Origin: Oscillospiraceae bacterium
GTDB lineage: Bacteria; Bacillota; Clostridia; Oscillospirales; Ruminococcaceae
Direction of reading: 5' to 3'
NCBI GenBank assembly: GCA_017828975.1
Contig: JAGAJN010000039.1
Span: 1 to 64,000 of the forward strand
Length of the DNA stretch: 64,000 bases
How positions within the stretch are numbered: the first letter of the stretch is position 1; each line of letters starts with the position of its first letter. The translations under genes were made by a program, and so were the position numbers. The notes below the pieces were generated by a model that made no database searches, was not told where the DNA came from, and saw only the letters and a program-made list of their open reading frames with translations. This document shows positions 6,291-63,216 of the stretch, in pieces.

Positions 6291-9200
6291 ATGAATATTT
6301 TTGACAGCATACTGAACGAACTGCCCGGATTTGCCGAGCTGAAAAATGCCCTTTCGGAGGGACTTTCCCCGCTTGGCGTCACAGGCGTTGCGGGAATACA
6401 CAAGGCGCACTTTATCTCCGCTCTGTCGGGCGAACGGGAGAAAATTCTCGTTATCACCGAGGACGAAGCAGCCGCAAAGCGTATCTGCGATGACATTAAC
6501 TCTCTCTCGGGCGAGGAATGTGCTGTTCTCTATCCTGCGAAAGATTTCACATTTACAAATGTTGAGGGCGTTTCCCGTGAGTATGAACAGGCGAGACTTT
6601 CAGTCCTAGCCTCCCTTTCGGGGCTGAACACTCACCCCTGCAAGGTGGTGGTTTCCTCGGCGGAAGCGGCTATGCAGCGGACTATCCCGCCCCATGCGCT
6701 GAAGGACCGCTCTATCACCCTTGCCCCGGGTATGGAAATCGCCGTTGACGAGCTGGTAAAGCGTCTGACGGCGGCGGGATATTCCCGAACAGACAAGGTG
6801 GAGGGTGCGGGACAGTTCTCCGTCAGGGGCGCAATTGCGGATATTTTCCCCGTTTCGGAAACATTTCCCATTCGTATCGAATATTGGGGCGATGAGATCG
6901 ACACGGTTTCCGCCTTTGATATAGAATCTCAGCGCCGTTCGGACACGCTGAAAAGGATAACCGTTGCCCCTGCGATAGAGGTGCTGTTTGACGATGCGCA
7001 AGCGTTTATACGGAAGATAGAGGAGCTGTCCAAGGGCGTCAGGGGCAAGAGGACGGAGCTTATCCGCACTAAGCTTTCGGCGGATATTGACCGTTTAAGC
7101 AGCGGGCTATCTCTCGGAAATATTGACAAATATCTCCCCGCCGCCTACGAAAAGCCTGCGACGATCTTTGACTATTTCCCCGAAGATGCGCTTCTCATTT
7201 TCAGCGAACGCCACAACTGCTATGAGAAAATGAAAAGCGTCAGGTCGCAGCATAACGAGGACGTGAAAATTCTCCTTGAAGAGGGCGAGCTGTTCAAGGG
7301 CTTGGAGGATTATATCCTCGAACAGGGGGATTTTGACCTGTCGGCGGAAAGGCTGAACACCGTTTACCTTGACACCTTTATGCGGGGCAGCGGCGGTATT
7401 GCGTTCAAAAAGCTTATCTCCGTGACCGCAAATCAGACTGCGCCCTGGGGCGGCGAGATACGTCAGCTTATCGAGGAACTTAGAAGCTTTTGTTCGAGAA
7501 GCTACAAGACGGTCGTTATGGCGGGCTCGGAGAAAACTCTGCCCATTATCGCAAACGACCTGCGTGAGGAAGGGATTCCCTGCGACATTATCACCGAGAG
7601 GACAGAGCTGAAAAACGGTCGTGTTTACCTGATGAACGGTGCGGTTTCTGCGGGCTTTGAGTATCCCGACGGAAAGGCTGCCCTTATCACTCAGGCAAAG
7701 GCAATGACCGCAAAACGCCGTCTGAAAAAGCGGAAAAAGGGCGAGGAGATAAAGTCCTTGTCGGACATTTCAAGCGGTGACCTAGTTGTTCACGCACTTC
7801 ACGGCATCGGACGGTTTGTGGGTATCCGAAAGCTTGAATTAGAGGGCGTTACAAAGGATTATATCACCATTCAGTATGCGGGGACGGACGTACTGTATGT
7901 TCCCGTTACACAGCTTGACCTTGTTTCAAAATATATCGGTCCTCGGGACGACAGCGGAGTTAAGCTGAATAAGCTGTCCTCTCAGGAATGGCAAAAGACT
8001 CGTTCACGGGTCAAAAAGGCTGTCAAGGATATGGCTGACGAGCTTATTGCCCTGTATGCAAAGCGAAGTCAGACCCCGGGACATGCATTTCCCGAGGACG
8101 ACGATTTTCAGGTGGAATTTGAGGAACGTTTTGATTACACCGAAACGGACGACCAGCTGCGTTCCGTTATGGAGATAAAAGAGGATATGCAGAAGCCCGT
8201 GCCTATGGACAGACTGCTTTGCGGAGATGTTGGATTCGGCAAAACGGAGGTTGCATGGCGGGCGGCGTTTAAGTGCATCGAGGACGGAAAGCAGTGCGCC
8301 GTGCTTGTGCCTACAACGGTTCTGGCATGGCAGCATTATCAGAGTGCGGTAAAGAGGTTTGAGCATTTCCCCATAAAGGTGCAGCTGCTGTCGAGATTCC
8401 GCAATTCCAAGGAGCAGGCGGATATTGTCAGACAGGTGAAAAGGGGAGAGATCGACCTTATCATCGGCACTCACAGGCTTGTGCAGAAGGACGTTGGGTT
8501 CAAGGACCTGGGGCTTGTTATCGTGGACGAGGAGCAGCGTTTCGGTGTTGCGCATAAGGAGCGGTTCAAGGAGCTGTTTGCGGGGGTGGACGTTCTTACG
8601 CTGTCCGCAACGCCTATCCCCAGGACGCTTAACATGGCTATGAGCGGAATTCGTGATATGTCGGTCATTGAGGAGCCGCCCGTTGACCGCTATCCCGTCC
8701 AGACCTATGTTATCGAGCATAATCAGGGCGTTATCATTCAGGCGATAAACAAGGAGCTGCGCCGTGGGGGACAGGTGTACTATATCCACAACCGCATTGA
8801 TACTATCGAGCGGTGCGCTGCGAAAATTGCCGAGTCCCTGCCCGATGCACGGATAGGCGTTGCTCACGGTCAGATTGGCGAGGAGGCGCTTTCGGAGATA
8901 TGGCGGCAGCTTGTGGAGCATGAGATAGACATTTTAGTCTGCACGACACTTATTGAAACGGGCGTTGATGTTCCCAACTGCAACACCCTTATCATCGAGG
9001 ACGCCGACAGGCTGGGACTTTCTCAGCTTTATCAGCTCAGAGGACGTGTGGGACGCTCCAATCGAAGGGCGTTTGCATATTTCACATTCCATAAAGGAAA
9101 AGTGCTGACGGAAATTGCGTCAAAGCGTCTGGAAGCAATAAGAGAATTTACGCAGTTCGGCAGCGGCTTCAGGATCGCTTTGCGTGATCTGGAAATTCGT

Positions 9201-46486: not shown

Positions 46487-46750
46487 TCAGTCCTCATAAT
46501 GCCCTTTACAGGCGATAATAAGCAGATTACCATGTTCGCCAATGTTATAGACAAGTCTGTTGCCGTGGTCGATATGTCTGCTCCATGCTTTGCGGTATTT
46601 CAGCGGCTCGGGGTGCCCGATGCCGTTTTGCAGACCGTTTCGCTCAATGTCCTTGACAAGCTCGTTTATCTTTTTTACGATTTTCTTATCCTGCAGCTGC
46701 CAATAAAGATAATCGTCCCAAGCACGGTCAGACCAAAGCTTATTCATCAT
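46487..46750 (-). CDS. yoeB: YoeB-family mRNA interferase toxin
   Basis: YoeB is a RelE-fold ribosome-dependent endoribonuclease. The 87-residue protein has the family signature: WSDRAWDDYLYWQLQDKKI at the N-terminus, GHPEPLKYRKAWSRHID in the middle, the RLVYNI strand, and the C-terminal ACKGHYED, with catalytic Glu, Arg and His/Tyr residues as in E. coli YoeB. It overlaps the yefM stop by 11 bp. It is the second gene of a classic type II toxin-antitoxin operon. Confidence 0.95.
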   Translation of the reverse strand: MMNKLWSDRAWDDYLYWQLQDKKIVKKINELVKDIERNGLQNGIGHPEPLKYRKAWSRHIDHGNRLVYNIGEHGNLLIIACKGHYED

Positions 46751-47000
46751 CCACCTCTATCAGCTCATGCTGCTGACCTTTTCCCGATTCCAGCTGAGCC
46801 ATTGAACGGTCAATCATGGCAAGATATTCGGCATTTCGGGCGGCTTTCATAAGGCGGTTATATTCGGACAGGCTTATGATAACGACATTTTTTTCGTCCT
46901 TGCGTGTAACAATGACCGTTTCATCATTGTCGGTAACGGTGTCACAATAATCCTTCAGATTGTTTCTTAATGTAGTATAATTTACCGCTAACATTGACAT
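46740..47000 (-). CDS. yefM: YefM-family antitoxin
   Basis: The 86-residue Phd/YefM-type antitoxin begins MSMLAVNYTTLRNNLKDYCD, with the N-terminal DNA-binding fold, followed by VIVTRKDEKNVVIISLSEY and an acidic C-terminal tail that would wrap YoeB. AAGGAAGG is just before the start; either of two nearby ATGs may be used. It autoregulates in other species by binding TGTACA palindromes, and two such motifs lie directly upstream here. Confidence 0.94.
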   Translation of the reverse strand: MSMLAVNYTTLRNNLKDYCDTVTDNDETVIVTRKDEKNVVIISLSEYNRLMKAARNAEYLAMIDRSMAQLESGKGQQHELIEVDDE

Positions 47001-48831: not shown

Positions 48832-49038
48832 TCAGGACAAAAGTGCCTTTATCTCGCTTTCGCTCATGCCTTTTGCGCGGAGCTTGGATATTATTTCTGC
48901 TTTGCCTTGTGCAATACCCTCATCTCTCGCTGCTTTCATCTGTGATGCTTCATCATGGAGGGCTTTTTCTCTTATTCTCGCTATTTCTCTAAGCTTGGCA
49001 TTGTCGCTCATATCGTATAACATTTTCGGCTTTTTCAC
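48832..49038 (-). pseudogene. Truncated tandem copy of the Rpn C-terminus
   Basis: A 68-codon frame (GTG at 49038) is almost identical to the last 70 residues of the neighbouring Rpn protein (YDMSDNAKLREIARIREKAL, then HDEASQMKAARDEG and EIISKLRAKGMSESEIKALL), with about 18 residues of the IAQG/ISQG repeat missing. Similarity continues upstream with indels (GTGAAAAA-GCCG against ATGAAAAAAGCCG) and then fades near the intragenic start of the parent gene. It has only a weak ribosome binding site. It is either a decayed duplication or a stand-alone antitoxin-like product. Confidence 0.7.
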
Positions 49039-49087: not shown

Positions 49088-49384
49088 TCATGACAAAAGT
49101 GCTTTTATCTCGCTTTCGCTCATGCCTTTTGCGCGGAGCTTGGATATTATTTCGGTTTCCCTTTCGATTCTGCCTTTTTCCATGCCTTGTGAAATGCCTT
49201 GTTCAATACCTTGTGCAATACCTATGGAAATACCCTCATCTCTCGCCGCTTTCATCTGCGATGCTTCATCATGGAGGGCTTTTTCTCTTATTCTCGCTAT
49301 TTCTCTAAGCTTGGCATTGTCGCTCATATCGTAGATAATATTTACGGCTTTTTTCATTGCCGGGTCGCCTGTTCCTGCGATCAT
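49088..49384 (-). CDS. Candidate intragenic RpnS-like C-terminal protein
   Basis: Within the Rpn gene AAGGAGG (49393-49399) precedes an in-frame ATG at 49384 by exactly 8 nt. It would yield a 98-residue protein (MIAGTGDPAMKKAVNII and onward) made of only the C-terminal helical region. In E. coli the corresponding short Rpn product is translated from an internal start and blocks the full-length toxin. Here the motif and its place are seen directly; translation and function are inferred. The nearly perfect site is part of codons for S-K-E-E-F-D. Confidence 0.55.
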   Translation of the reverse strand: MIAGTGDPAMKKAVNIIYDMSDNAKLREIARIREKALHDEASQMKAARDEGISIGIAQGIEQGISQGMEKGRIERETEIISKLRAKGMSESEIKALLS

Positions 49385-49939
49385 ATCAAATTCCTCCTTG
49401 CTGTCCGCCCTGATAAATTGCAGCCACATTTCACGGCGGTTGTTGCTGTTAAATTTTTTCCCCAGCTTACGCAGTTCAAAAAAGTGGATATGGAATTTGT
49501 CGTAAAACAGCTCATTTGTGTCCTTGAACACTGTCACCGCTTCCGCATGATAGTCCGTTCTGTCGGGGAAAAGAATAAAATCCAGAATATTAATGGTTAT
49601 TGTCTGCTTCAGCTCGCTGTAATTTTCTCCCTTTTCAAGCTCCGAAGAGAACAGCTTCGACCAATAAAACATTGCTCTGTCACGATAATTAGGGTCGTTA
49701 TTCACCTGTATCTCAACATTTACAAGCTTGTCGTCAACAATTAGATTAAGGTCAAGCCTGCTGAATTTTCCGTCAATATCTTCGGGAGTAAGCTCGGGGT
49801 TTGTCGGTACAACACTATTTATTCTGTCTATGGGAATTTCCAGTATCTCCGAAAGAAAATCTTTAAGCAGATCGAGGTTTTCGGAGAAAAACTTTTTGAA
49901 GATAACGTCAAGCTTTGCGGATACCACTTCTCTTGCCAT
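49088..49939 (-). CDS. Rpn family recombination-promoting nuclease / PD-(D/E)XK transposase-like protein
   Basis: The 283-residue protein starts at MAREVVSAKLDVIFKKFF (49939; AAAGGAGG 8 nt before). The N-terminus is the typical Rpn opening (KLDVIFKKFFSENLDLLKDF). The nuclease core has RLDLNLIVDDKLVNVEIQVN (Asp, then Glu-x-Gln), followed by RAMFYWSKLFSSELEKGENY. The C-terminal third is helical with a GISIGIAQGIEQGISQGMEK repeat and ends ESEIKALLS. Homologues act as DNases in recombination and phage defence. A strong internal ribosome binding site lies in frame (see 49384). It starts 53 bp after the histidine kinase stop and may be transcribed with the ABC operon. Confidence 0.9.
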   Translation of the reverse strand: MAREVVSAKLDVIFKKFFSENLDLLKDFLSEILEIPIDRINSVVPTNPELTPEDIDGKFSRLDLNLIVDDKLVNVEIQVNNDPNYRDRAMFYWSKLFSSELEKGENYSELKQTITINILDFILFPDRTDYHAEAVTVFKDTNELFYDKFHIHFFELRKLGKKFNSNNRREMWLQFIRADSKEEFDMIAGTGDPAMKKAVNIIYDMSDNAKLREIARIREKALHDEASQMKAARDEGISIGIAQGIEQGISQGMEKGRIERETEIISKLRAKGMSESEIKALLS

Positions 49940-49992
49940 TGCCATCGCCCTCCTTTGCTTTATTATACCACGATTTTGGGAACTTTTCAACC

Positions 49993-52919: not shown

Positions 52920-53597
52920 TCAATAGTATCTCTTGCGGTTTTTAAGTACGAGAACAACTACAACAGCAGCTATCACCACAACTGCGATAACAACGATAAG
53001 TACGACATTGATGCCGCCCGATTCGCTTTCTTCCTCGCTGTCGGCAGCGGCGGTTTGCTCCGATTTGTCCTTATCGTCGGATTTTTCCTCCTCAGCGGGA
53101 GCATCTCCGATACCATCGCCGTCAATATCGAAGGTAACTTTTTTCACCAGAAGCTCATTATCGGTATCGCCCACATAAATCGAATCAATATCCGACAGAT
53201 CGTCGTGTCCCACCGCTTCTATCATAGATGGATAATCGAAAACAGCAACGCCGTCCTTAATATCTGCGGGAGCGACTCTTGCCCATATGGATTCCACATC
53301 TTCGGTTTTCCGCCTGTACAGGATAAATTCCAGACCGACATATTCCTCGGGCGGTTCACTTTCAAGTACAAATTCAACATAAAGCTTGGTGTTTTCGTTC
53401 ATATCCGAAAGGGAGAAGGGTATGCTTTCTTCTCCGTTAAAGTTATAGGCAAAAGCCTGTCCCCAGCTTCTGGGAGATCTGCATTCGCCTTCAAACAGGC
53501 AGATGTCATCATCTGCGGCAAATGCTGTCACGGCGGACATTATGACTGCAAGCATTGTCACGGCTGCCGCAGAAAGCCATTTGGAAATTTTGCGCAT
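52920..53597 (-). CDS. Membrane-anchored CBM-like surface protein, paralogue 1
   Basis: The 225-residue protein has a signal peptide (MRKISKWLSAAAVTMLAVIM to AFA), then mature DDDICLFEGECRSPRSWGQA. A beta-sandwich-like domain follows with FILYRR, WARVAPADIKDGVAVFDYPS and IDSIYVGDTDNELLVKKVTF. An acidic linker leads to a C-terminal membrane helix and KNRKRYY tail. The SWGQA and DGVAxFDY motifs resemble carbohydrate-binding modules found with Ruminococcus glycoside hydrolases; this likeness is from memory and not a search. It is the most diverged of three tandem copies and has its own promoter and terminator. Binding target is unknown. Confidence 0.75.
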   Translation of the reverse strand: MRKISKWLSAAAVTMLAVIMSAVTAFAADDDICLFEGECRSPRSWGQAFAYNFNGEESIPFSLSDMNENTKLYVEFVLESEPPEEYVGLEFILYRRKTEDVESIWARVAPADIKDGVAVFDYPSMIEAVGHDDLSDIDSIYVGDTDNELLVKKVTFDIDGDGIGDAPAEEEKSDDKDKSEQTAAADSEEESESGGINVVLIVVIAVVVIAAVVVVLVLKNRKRYY

Positions 53598-53659
53598 ATC
53601 AACAGCTCCTTTAATTATGACGTAATATTACTGCAAAAAGATAAAGCAGCTTTATTTTT

Positions 53660-53688
53660 ATTTTACATCAATTTTGCATAATTGTCAA
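53660..53688 (-). promoter_or_regulatory. Promoter of paralogue 1
   Basis: Minus strand TTGACA (53683-53688), 17 bp, TAAAAT (53660-53665). Nearly the same block occurs before paralogue 3. Confidence 0.78.
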
Positions 53689-53756
53689 TAATGATATGGT
53701 GATTTTTCACAAGATTTTCATTTTTTATACTTCATGACAATGGGGAACATTGGCGC

Positions 53757-53790
53757 AAAAAATCCCCGCCCCCGAAAACGGAAGCGGAGA
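53757..53790 (-). terminator. Terminator of CBM-like paralogue 2
   Basis: The same hairpin as at 52880 (CTCCGCTTCCG with CGGGGGCGG), followed by U-run on the minus strand. Confidence 0.75.
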
Positions 53791-53795
53791 GAACA

Positions 53796-54533
53796 TCAAT
53801 AATATTTCTTGCGGTTCTTCAGAACAAGAACGACTACAACAGCCGCTATGACCACAACTGCGATAACAACGATAAGCACGACATTGATGCCGCCAGAGCT
53901 GCTTTCTTCCTCGTTCTCCTCGGCTTTGTCCTTGTCGTCAGCCTTTTGGGAAGTGGTTTCCTCTTCCTTGTCATCATCAGGAGCAGAGGTTTCCTCTGCT
54001 TTGTCCTCGCTTTTGATTTCGGGAATTTCTACTGTGTCGCCGTTGATACCGTCGCCGTTGATGTCGAATACGACCTTTGTTACCTTAAGTACAGCACCCG
54101 TGTCGCCGACATATATCTGGTCAACGGTGGAGAGATCGTCGGAGCCGTATGTATCGACCATGGAAGCGTAATCGAAGGCCGCCACACCGTCTGTGATGTC
54201 TGTGGGCGGCGTCTGTGCCCATATCTGGTCGCCGCCTTCCTTTTCCCATTTCTGGAGGATAAAGGTAAGTCCCTGAGTATTTGCAGCAGGCGTGCCTTCC
54301 AGTTCAAAATCCACATACACCTTGCTGCTTTCGTTCAGCATAAGGATAAGCTGAGCGTATTTTTCGTCTGAACGGATATTGAGGTTATAAGCCTGTCCCC
54401 AGCTTCCGTTTGATTTGCCCTCGCCCTCAAACAGGCAGATGTCATCGTCTGCTGCGGCTGCGGTCACTGCGGACATTATGACTGCCAGAAGCATCACGGC
54501 TGCCGCAGAAAGCCATTTGGAAAATTTTCTCAT
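53796..54533 (-). CDS. Membrane-anchored CBM-like surface protein, paralogue 2
   Basis: The 245-residue protein has the same plan as paralogue 1: signal peptide, ICLFEGEGKSNGSWGQAYNL, the LTFILQKWEKEGGDQIWAQT segment, IYVGDTGAVLKVTKVVFDI, a longer acidic linker rich in Glu/Asp/Lys/Thr, then a membrane helix and KNRKKYY. The ectodomain is closer to paralogue 3 than to 1. Only 58 bp separate it from paralogue 3, and no separate consensus promoter was found, so they are probably co-transcribed. Confidence 0.75.
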   Translation of the reverse strand: MRKFSKWLSAAAVMLLAVIMSAVTAAAADDDICLFEGEGKSNGSWGQAYNLNIRSDEKYAQLILMLNESSKVYVDFELEGTPAANTQGLTFILQKWEKEGGDQIWAQTPPTDITDGVAAFDYASMVDTYGSDDLSTVDQIYVGDTGAVLKVTKVVFDINGDGINGDTVEIPEIKSEDKAEETSAPDDDKEEETTSQKADDKDKAEENEEESSSGGINVVLIVVIAVVVIAAVVVVLVLKNRKKYY

Positions 54534-54591
54534 GTTAAAAACTCCTTTAATTATAATATTTAGGGAGAGATACCCTGATCATGAAACAACA

Positions 54592-55392
54592 TCAGTAATA
54601 TTTCTTACGTGTCCTGTCTATGATAACAATTATAACAGCTGCAACAAATGTAACGGAAATGATAACGATAACTACGACTGCTTCTGTGGTGAGCGAGCCG
54701 TTTTTTTCTTCGCTGACGGCGGTGGTTTCTTCGGTCTGCTCGGAAGCTTTGGGAGTTGCGGACTCCTCGGTGATTTTTTCGTCGGCGGCTGCTGTGGTTT
54801 CCTCAGGCTTGTCGTCAAGGTCAGCTGCGGAGGTTTCCTCTGCTGTGGTTTCCGGCGGGGCTAAGACTGCGCCCACTTCGGGGACATCTGCGGTATCACC
54901 GTTGATGCCGTCGCCGTATATGTCGAATACCACTCTTGTCACCTTGATAACAGCATGTGTATCGCCGATATATATCTGGTCAACGCCGGAAAGATCATCG
55001 CTGCCGAAGGTTTTCACAAGTGAAGCATAATCAAATGTGGCAACGCCGTCCGTTACATCTATGGGAGGTGTCTGCGCCCAGACAGAATCTCCCCCTTGCT
55101 TTTCCCATTTCTGGAGGATAAATTCAATGCCCTGAGTGTTCGGCGAAGGTGTGCCTTCAAGGCTGAAATCCACATATATCTTGCTGTTTTCATTAAGCAT
55201 CGTCATAAGCTGAGCGTATTTGTCATTTGCACGGATATTGAGGGAATACGCCTGTCCCCATTTTCCGTTTGATCTGCCCTCGCCCTCAAACAGGCATATG
55301 TCATCGTCTGCTGCGGCTGCGGTCACTGCGGACATTATGAATGCCGTAATTATGGCAGCTGCCGCAGAAAACCATTTCGATATCTTTCTCAT
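54592..55392 (-). CDS. Membrane-anchored CBM-like surface protein, paralogue 3
   Basis: The 266-residue protein has signal peptide MRKISKWFSAAAAIITAFIM to TAAA, ectodomain ICLFEGEGRSNGKWGQAYSL through IYIGDTHAVIKVTRVVFDI, the longest linker of the three (Thr/Glu/Ala-rich), then a membrane helix (VVVIVIISVTFVAAVIIVII) and DRTRKKYY. It is first in the probable paralogue 3-2 operon with its own promoter. The linker is the least conserved part, which suggests selection mainly on the ectodomain and anchor. Confidence 0.75.
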   Translation of the reverse strand: MRKISKWFSAAAAIITAFIMSAVTAAAADDDICLFEGEGRSNGKWGQAYSLNIRANDKYAQLMTMLNENSKIYVDFSLEGTPSPNTQGIEFILQKWEKQGGDSVWAQTPPIDVTDGVATFDYASLVKTFGSDDLSGVDQIYIGDTHAVIKVTRVVFDIYGDGINGDTADVPEVGAVLAPPETTAEETSAADLDDKPEETTAAADEKITEESATPKASEQTEETTAVSEEKNGSLTTEAVVVIVIISVTFVAAVIIVIIDRTRKKYY

Positions 55393-62810: not shown

Positions 62811-62839
62811 TTGACAGTCGGGCGTATAAGTGATATAAT
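62811..62839 (+). promoter_or_regulatory. Perfect consensus promoter of the Rpn-C-like mini-gene
   Basis: TTGACA (62811-62816), 17 bp, TATAAT (62834-62839). Confidence 0.88.
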
Positions 62840-62898
62840 AAAGCCTGTTAATTGAAGATTGGCTGAACCTTATCAATGCAGAAACGGAGGGTGATCTT

Positions 62899-63174
62899 AT
62901 GGCAATACAGCAGACAACGACAATTCCCGAAGTCAAGGATACGATAGTTATGCTCCGTCAGCTCAGTGCTGATGAGAAGGTGCGGCAGGAAGCCTATTAT
63001 CGGGAGAAACGTCTTCACGATGAAGCTACTGCATTAGGTCATGCCCGCAGAGAGGGTATGCTCAGCACCCTTGCGGGTCTTGTTAAAAAGGGAATTCTTA
63101 CCGTTGCTCAGGCAGCGGAAGAAGCAAATATGAGCGTTCCTGAGTTTGAAGCCAAAACAGGATTATCAATGTAA
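62899..63174 (+). CDS. Stand-alone C-terminal Rpn-like protein
   Basis: The 91-residue protein starts at 62899 after CGGAGGGTGA. Residues 12-54 align with the C-terminal part of the Rpn protein at 49088-49939, including REKRLHDEA against REKALHDEA and similar charged flanks. No nuclease core is present. It ends with a helical LTVAQAAEEANMSVPEFEAK, as many Rpn proteins do. It has a perfect promoter, a strong ribosome binding site and a terminator, so it looks like a real, expressed gene and not debris. It may be an antitoxin-like partner of Rpn nucleases. Confidence 0.75.
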   Translation: MAIQQTTTIPEVKDTIVMLRQLSADEKVRQEAYYREKRLHDEATALGHARREGMLSTLAGLVKKGILTVAQAAEEANMSVPEFEAKTGLSM

Positions 63175-63181
63175 ACAAAAG

Positions 63182-63216
63182 AGCCTTGATCGGTGTTCGT
63201 ATCAAGGCTTTTTTTC
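63182..63216 (+). terminator. Intrinsic terminator after the mini-gene
   Basis: AGCCTTGAT/ATCAAGGCT with a 10-nt loop, then TTTTTTT. Confidence 0.9.

Follow-up and report, generated by a model that had tools for sequence, protein, structure and literature searches.

The stretch examined here, referred to as the window, comprises 64,000 nucleotides (nt) of contig JAGAJN010000039.1 (positions 1 to 64,000; assembly GCA_017828975.1) from an Oscillospiraceae bacterium, a member of the Clostridia. Its minus strand carries at 49088..49939 an rpn gene coding for a PD-(D/E)XK nuclease of 283 residues (RpnL), and inside this gene lies a second, in-frame start signal from which a short C-terminal protein (RpnS) is probably made. 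The full protein matches PF12784 (6.1e-47, 160.7 bits for a cut-off of 27.4) and TIGR01784, the profile of the Rpn family (131.6 bits for a curated cut-off of 52.1). PF12784 is its only Pfam match at E up to 1, the PF04754 domain being absent, and the full-length sequence has no match among solved structures at E up to 10. The gene is preceded by the Shine-Dalgarno sequence (SD) AAGGAGG (49949..49955, minus strand; pairing −10.3 kcal/mol) and by a promoter-like TTGAAA-17-TATAAT with a TG (49962..49990, minus strand; 11 of 12 matches). Upstream of 120 rpn genes the best such site has on average 9.3 of 12 matches, against 8.2 after base shuffling, and is perfect (12/12) in 12 genes. The residues D63, E76, and Q78, which from knowledge of the family we take to be catalytic, are encoded within 49706..49753 (minus strand). 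Because D63 and E76 are invariant and Q78 is at least 90% conserved in 60 aligned sequences (that of the window included), the nuclease looks intact, and its activity is predicted.

A preliminary description of this locus had reported AAGGAGG at 49393..49399, 8 nt from an in-frame ATG at 49384 and within the rpn gene, and the sequence reads exactly so. The internal SD (minus strand; pairing −10.1 kcal/mol) is separated by AATTTGAT (8 nt) from the ATG of Met186 (49382..49384, minus strand), and the whole block encodes S-K-E-E-F-D-M. Translation from this codon would yield an RpnS of 98 residues (49088..49384, minus strand), homologs of which exist as detached copies in relatives. RpnS would include a tract of six four-residue repeats, RDEG ISIG IAQG IEQG ISQG MEKG (49172..49243, minus strand), which starts at residue 233, 47 residues after Met186. 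The start had been placed just before the C-terminus. It is indeed downstream of the probable catalytic residues, but it falls inside the PF12784 domain, the match to which ends at residue 231, and RpnS is no strictly separate tail; residues 192–232 alone align weakly, below the cut-off, with the last 41 positions of PF12784 (E 0.025). In PADLOC, the only hit of the Rpn protein is a candidate model of 90 positions named "putative invertase" (C3a178, 1.3e-7), which covers residues 207–274 (49118..49321, minus strand), inside the RpnS part; this model may itself describe detached RpnS-like proteins.

Among the 14 in-frame ATG, GTG, and TTG codons of the gene, strong pairing is found only at its own start and at 49384, the other 12 reaching at most −3.5 kcal/mol, with all pairings computed against an assumed standard anti-SD. 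The inner start, described before as near-perfect, pairs about as well as the gene's own; the signal of the single gene is nevertheless nonsignificant. In nine other genes of the window, codon choice gives AAG-GAG for K-E a probability of 0.28, and for this reason the quality of the site is not evidence by itself. The pattern AAGGAGG-N5-11-ATG occurs three times in the window for 0.96 expected, a number reached in 9 of 100 shuffles. Single-gene statistics were thus rejected as proof, and chance is not negligible for an SD/ATG pair in one gene alone. Accessibility of the SD was rejected as support too, because the mean unpaired probability of the 18-nt stretch from SD to ATG (0.64) differs only mildly from that of the surrounding 180 nt (0.53).

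The homologs are more informative. Relatives of rpn (E up to 1e-15) are found in 40 of 297 genomes of the same taxonomic family, including the one of the window. A scan of GTDB contigs gave 11 loci, nine of which are strong matches in metagenome-assembled genomes named Lapin (French for rabbit) and labelled uncultured Clostridia or Ruminococcus. It is on such labels that the term gut bacterium rests for the relatives. One of these loci (L117, from a genome labelled uncultured Ruminococcus) holds the same open reading frame (ORF) as a locus of the family search (L015), and identical ORFs were counted once. From both sources, 106 full-length ORFs were aligned, and counts are given on 103, after leaving out three with no alignment in the SD/ATG block (L108, L109, and L004) and keeping L102, an ORF of 189 residues with a large internal gap relative to the profile. 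Only ATG and GTG were scored as inner starts. One of them is present at residue 185–187 in 75 of the 103 homologs (ATG in 68, GTG in 7) and absent from there in 28. The 75 include three genes (L111, L112, and L116) with only a GTG at +1 and without strong SD, which were scored as lacking the start in the tree-based test mentioned below.

The strongest evidence comes from synonymous codon choice. Codons −5 and −4 relative to the inner start hold the two synonymous positions within GGAGG, while codons −3 and −1, often acidic, lie outside the SD. With an expectation derived mainly from each gene's own codon use, codon −5 ends in G in 66 of the 75 genes with the start (28.1 expected) and codon −4 in 63 of 68 (25.4 expected). 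The control codons of the same genes are at background, both −3 (19/55, 18.0 expected) and −1 (17/48, 16.7 expected). When Glu is found at −4, it is encoded by GAG or GAA in a ratio of 63/0 in genes with the start and 5/22 in genes without (Fisher 1.5e-16, with no correction for relatedness). When the start is at 186 (58 genes), codons −4 and −5 are, in this order, the two that most often end in G (52/52 and 53/57) among the 53 columns with at least 30 Glu, Lys, or Gln, the third-ranked column being at 0.75; in the genes without the start, they rank 49th and 12th of 50. Thinning the set to 28 representatives with less than 60% identity leaves the contrast in place (24/24 at −4 and 25/27 at −5, for 6/18 at −3 and 6/10 at −1). 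Shared ancestry alone does not explain such a constraint, because neighboring codons of the same sequences vary freely. A further control comes from 192 other ORFs, in which GAG encodes 35 of the 80 Glu residues located at −4 of an ATG, close to the background of 42%. Lack of conservation of the SD/ATG block beyond codon constraints had been named in the preliminary description as one refuting outcome, and the homologs display the opposite: third positions nearly fixed to G in the SD codons and at background in their neighbors.

The place of the inner start is also variable among clades. Every in-frame ATG and GTG was scored, and a start was called strong when its SD pairs at −8 or better with a spacing of 4–10. 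In the zone of residues 178–200, a strong start occurs in 64 of the 75 genes with the start at 185–187 and in 20 of the 28 genes without it, when synonymous recoding would give 14.2 and 8.2, respectively. Hence 84 of 103 homologs have exactly one strong inner start in this zone of 23 codons, for approximately 22 expected by recoding, and none has two. Outside the zone (beyond residue 20), only 2 of 704 and 2 of 285 in-frame ATG or GTG codons are strong, and in the 192 control ORFs 42 of 2193 are. The trend extends to the class level, where the zone holds a strong start in 12 of 30 more distant PF12784 ORFs, taken from 30 loci among those listed, for 3.1 expected; elsewhere in these ORFs, 0 of 240 codons are strong. 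In 19 genes, the inner start is found at residue 195, nine codons further on, and is made from different amino acids (M-E-V-P-V-M-like or A-G-G-D-L-M), mostly in the form GGAGGTG-N5/6-ATG. At the former place of the SD, genes without the start at 185–187 mostly have GAA instead of the GAG of the others. On a quick tree built from the nuclease part (102 rows, one of the 103 being omitted for its short nuclease part), the residue-195 group falls into two separate clades and requires two changes, both forced by starred branches; one of these clades is nested inside the clade of 19 genes to which the gene of the window belongs. We infer that residue 186 is the older place; the tree is unrooted and does not distinguish gain from loss.

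The preliminary description had also claimed extra C-terminal-only copies nearby, and two do exist. The closer one (48832..49038, minus strand; up to 68 residues, start uncertain) is 89% identical to the rpn gene over its match. It shows two deletions (12 and 48 nt) in the repeat tract, which leave two repeat units for the parent's six, and it has neither the GGAGG-N8-ATG block nor a convincing start. Its sequence suggests that the C-terminal end was duplicated in tandem, together with the spacer and a stretch resembling a ribosome-binding site, similar to that of the next gene. The second copy is a solitary RpnS-like gene of 91 residues without nuclease domain (62899..63174, plus strand; 35% identity), more diverged from the rpn gene, from which it is 13 kb apart; the searches of the contig found no nearer full-length rpn. 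It has its own promoter-like TTGACA-17-TATAAT with a TG (62811..62839, plus strand; 12 of 12 matches) and a GGAGG (62886..62890, plus strand; pairing −10.0) 8 nt before the ATG at 62899, at the place homologous to the internal SD. This ATG is preceded by a short in-frame remnant ending in L-I-N-A-E-T-E-G-D-L, and by eye an inverted repeat and, behind it, a T run close the gene near 63215; a scan with loops of 3–8 did not list this repeat. The encoded protein is 72–77% identical over 60–68 residues to long Rpn ORFs (250–328 residues) in two genomes (G178 and G287). Its last 40–60 residues also match parts of ORFs of 315–343 residues (G240:C109 and G287:C43).

Among relatives, a detached copy adjoins at least 14 of the 93 full-length genes having 350 nt or more of downstream sequence, a lower bound in that only eight of a larger number of candidates were scored in many genomes and that two fragment sites (G181:C47 and G133:C108) were left out. 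The starts of these copies, judged by eye, fall at the inner Met in two loci (L019 and L022). Two other copies (L025 and L105) carry the whole SD/ATG block behind a short remnant, and further ones start 10–20 residues later; some of these have their own SD (L013), and others show no clear one. Copies that begin at the inner start or carry it thus support a gene boundary at that place. Repeat numbers, a simple tally of G at every fourth residue, are equal in parent and copy in only 1 of 25 pairs (L022; 16 pairs plus 9). Not among these pairs are L105 (parent outside the locus), L110 (the same locus as L154), a second full-length gene at L025, and the copies next to L099 and L080, for which repeats were not scored. 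The counts vary too much to tell such mismatch from free drift, and the idea of a selected mismatch was rejected, leaving only that matching is not kept. Likewise unsupported is the idea that a copy compensates for a missing strong inner start (4/17 with a copy, versus 10/76; Fisher p 0.28); in the small clade L111/L112/L116, whose genes showed no strong inner start, two of the three members have a copy. As an observation apart, one locus (L129, G561:C1 2078579–2084367) holds an array of six rpn genes that score nearly equally with PF12784 (228.8–228.9 bits), and a C-terminal-only ORF separates two of these genes.

A similar organization is found in a second, divergent Rpn-like subfamily of the same genome, with genes on three contigs (G000:C21 at 8049–9071, C2, and C34). 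The protein of C21 is barely above the PF12784 cut-off (28.0 bits for 27.4) and below that of TIGR01784 (37.6 for 52.1). Its gene has AAGGAGG-N8-ATG just upstream of the repeats, and detached copies adjoin the genes of C21 and C2. In this subfamily, 20 of 24 aligned members have a strong SD at one and the same Met, and two additional strong sites lie elsewhere. Eight detached copies from six loci resemble their parent at 10–15 of the 15 nt before the ATG and at 13–21 of the 45 nt above; in the copies of L154 and L168 this likeness extends some 10–20 nt above the SD, and the remaining six lose it at or close to the SD. An additional, unrelated ATG match in L154 was left out of the count. In one copy of L157, an in-frame TAG between SD and ATG blocks upstream translation in that frame, which makes the ATG behind the SD the natural start. 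The tandem detached copy at L110 (G000:C21 8000–9600) has six repeat units for nine in its parent; visual inspection shows one more remnant of this stretch, the third, near 1477–1515.

The rpn gene of the window thus has two start signals of nearly equal strength, one at its beginning and one within, and the constraint on the latter, its clade-specific places, and the copies that begin at it or carry it strongly support initiation at 49384. It is probable, by analogy with RpnL/RpnS of Escherichia coli, that the gene forms by itself a toxin/antitoxin system, with two proteins made in the same frame. In E. coli, RpnS is made from an internal start, binds RpnL, and blocks it, which relieves growth inhibition, SOS induction, and DNA cleavage (Zhong et al. 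2023, PMC10327210). Here, translation from 49939 would give RpnL, the nuclease with its probable catalytic residues, and translation from the inner SD/ATG would give RpnS, with the repeat tract and no active site. By pairing with the same stretch of RpnL, RpnS would hold the nuclease in check, and phage infection or some other stress would release it by shifting the balance between the two. That both proteins are made, that RpnL is toxic and RpnS its antitoxin, and that the purpose is defense would all follow from this analogy; in E. coli, RpnP2 protects against some phages (PMC10327210).

Several elements weigh against this interpretation. The −8 threshold is the analyst's choice, the zone 178–200 was fixed after the start positions were known, and 19 of the 103 homologs have no strong ATG or GTG start in it; by eye, four genes without strong start (L091, L095, L100, and L101) have an in-frame TTG after GGAG. 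A test of the association between start and GAG on independent pairs of the tree gave four pairs in agreement, none in disagreement, and two ties (p 0.125), a number of pairs too small. The 3′ end of the host 16S rRNA was not found in the assembly, which makes the anti-SD an assumption. Whereas rpn genes of E. coli have an inner transcription start (PMC10327210), a simple scan of the minus strand found no usable promoter-like site inside the gene of the window upstream of 49384. The sole site inside the gene on its strand (49407–49380, 9/12) cannot drive the inner start, because it overlaps the SD/ATG itself. The geometry also departs from that of E. coli rpnA, where AAGGAG-N6-ATG at Met244 gives an RpnS of 49 residues, for 98 here, and the 47 residues between Met186 and the repeats exceed the 8–20 found in RpnS with inserted repeats (PMC10327210).

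The SD-like block could be a mere by-product of a conserved acidic motif, (K/E)EE(F/L)xM, at which no initiation occurs. The frequency of AAG-GAG for K-E under the codon use of the window, the nonsignificance of one gene taken alone, and the low power of the independent-pairs test all speak for it. Yet the fixation of third positions to G is confined to the two SD codons and is seen mainly where the start is present. In 10 genes with the start one codon earlier, mostly within T-E-G-(D/E)-L-M, GAG is kept at −4 in 10/10 and ACG is found at −5 in 7/10, amid other amino acids, and the 19 genes with the start at residue 195 build their SD from other sequences altogether. A by-product therefore seems very improbable. 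If the inner start is used, the short protein might still be a partner that helps to assemble or activate the nuclease, in the manner of Cas11d with Cas10d, a case cited as such by Zhong et al. (PMC10327210). Sequence gives no distinction between inhibition and assembly, and the match of repeat counts in a single pair of 25 indicates that copies are not kept matched, which the specificity rule of E. coli would require of an antitoxin acting on the neighbor; the importance of matched repeat numbers was shown there for RpnC (PMC10327210). For the intragenic form, however, matching does not matter, since by construction it has the sequence of its parent, and the same kind of arrangement acts in E. 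coli to relieve toxicity, so that we regard a partner role as unlikely.

The detached copies raise a separate matter, compatible with a toxin/antitoxin role for the gene itself. Under the E. coli rule, mismatched copies would not neutralize their neighbor, and they would be either debris or proteins serving other RpnL alleles. That they are mere debris of tandem duplication, uninformative on function, is a real possibility, if one with less than an even chance. The copy at 49038–48832 looks like a duplicated 3′ end without convincing start, and counts differ from the neighbor's in 24 of 25 pairs. Against this, the solitary copy has both a perfect promoter-like site and an SD, copies in relatives begin at the inner Met, carry the block, or have their own SD, 14 of 93 genes are adjoined by one, and in E. 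coli the copy of rpnE-ypaA is made as protein (PMC10327210), though the RefSeq record calls ypaA a pseudogene. One may tentatively go further, with more doubt than confidence, and regard the antitoxin frame as a portable module at the nucleotide level: its start shifts, its copies break at or near the SD and acquire new repeat numbers, and one stands alone behind a strong promoter. On this view, the detached copies would be a stock of antitoxins directed at other RpnL alleles, whether incoming or past, and not spares for the neighbor. What they neutralize becomes directly testable if copies are combined with RpnL alleles that differ in repeat number.

Two other features of the window were noted. 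A YefM/YoeB-type toxin-antitoxin pair (46487–47000, minus strand; PF06769 at 94.3 bits and PF02604 at 54.0 bits) is located about 2 kb downstream. At 52920–55392 (minus strand), there are three similar tandem ORFs, in which the N-terminus is signal-like (MRKxSKW) and a hydrophobic segment lies close to the C-terminus.

The comparative test used here requires no experiment and tells a real gene within a gene from a chance SD in coding sequence; it was applied to a kind of gene for which proof exists in E. coli. Dozens of rpn genes of Clostridia are predicted by it to have inner starts at specified places, which annotation of one protein per gene would miss. As in E. coli RpnL/RpnS (RpnA-E and RpnP2), a gene matching TIGR01784 contains an in-frame SD and ATG, and its C-terminal product carries a variable number of four-residue repeats and has a detached copy downstream, as ypaA in E. 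coli; detached rpnS copies are known in that species (PMC10327210). The second subfamily comes even closer, with an inner Met approximately eight residues before the repeats, within the E. coli range. The proposal of the preliminary description that the E. coli design operates here therefore holds for the principle and fails for the layout, both in the length of the product and in the distance to the repeats. By a rough extrapolation from match ends, the inner start of the window gene lies about 40 positions of the TIGR01784 profile earlier than the one of E. coli. The domains differ as well, PF12784 in the window and PF04754, the only match at E up to 0.01, in RpnA and RpnE, which score 160.9 and 172.4 bits with TIGR01784. 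Also unlike E. coli, the position of the start varies among clades, and a solitary copy with a promoter-like site is found 13 kb away. The occurrence of RpnS in Gram-positive bacteria is not new, as the rpn gene of Clostridioides difficile, tested in E. coli, makes RpnS from an internal start (PMC10327210). No other research paper on RpnS was found in the literature searched, the coverage of which excludes most subscription journals, although the terms occur in a review (PMC12707154). As far as these searches go, four points are new: the evidence from evolution that supports the inner start, the layout that departs from E. coli, a start that shifts its place, and a solitary copy with its own promoter-like site.
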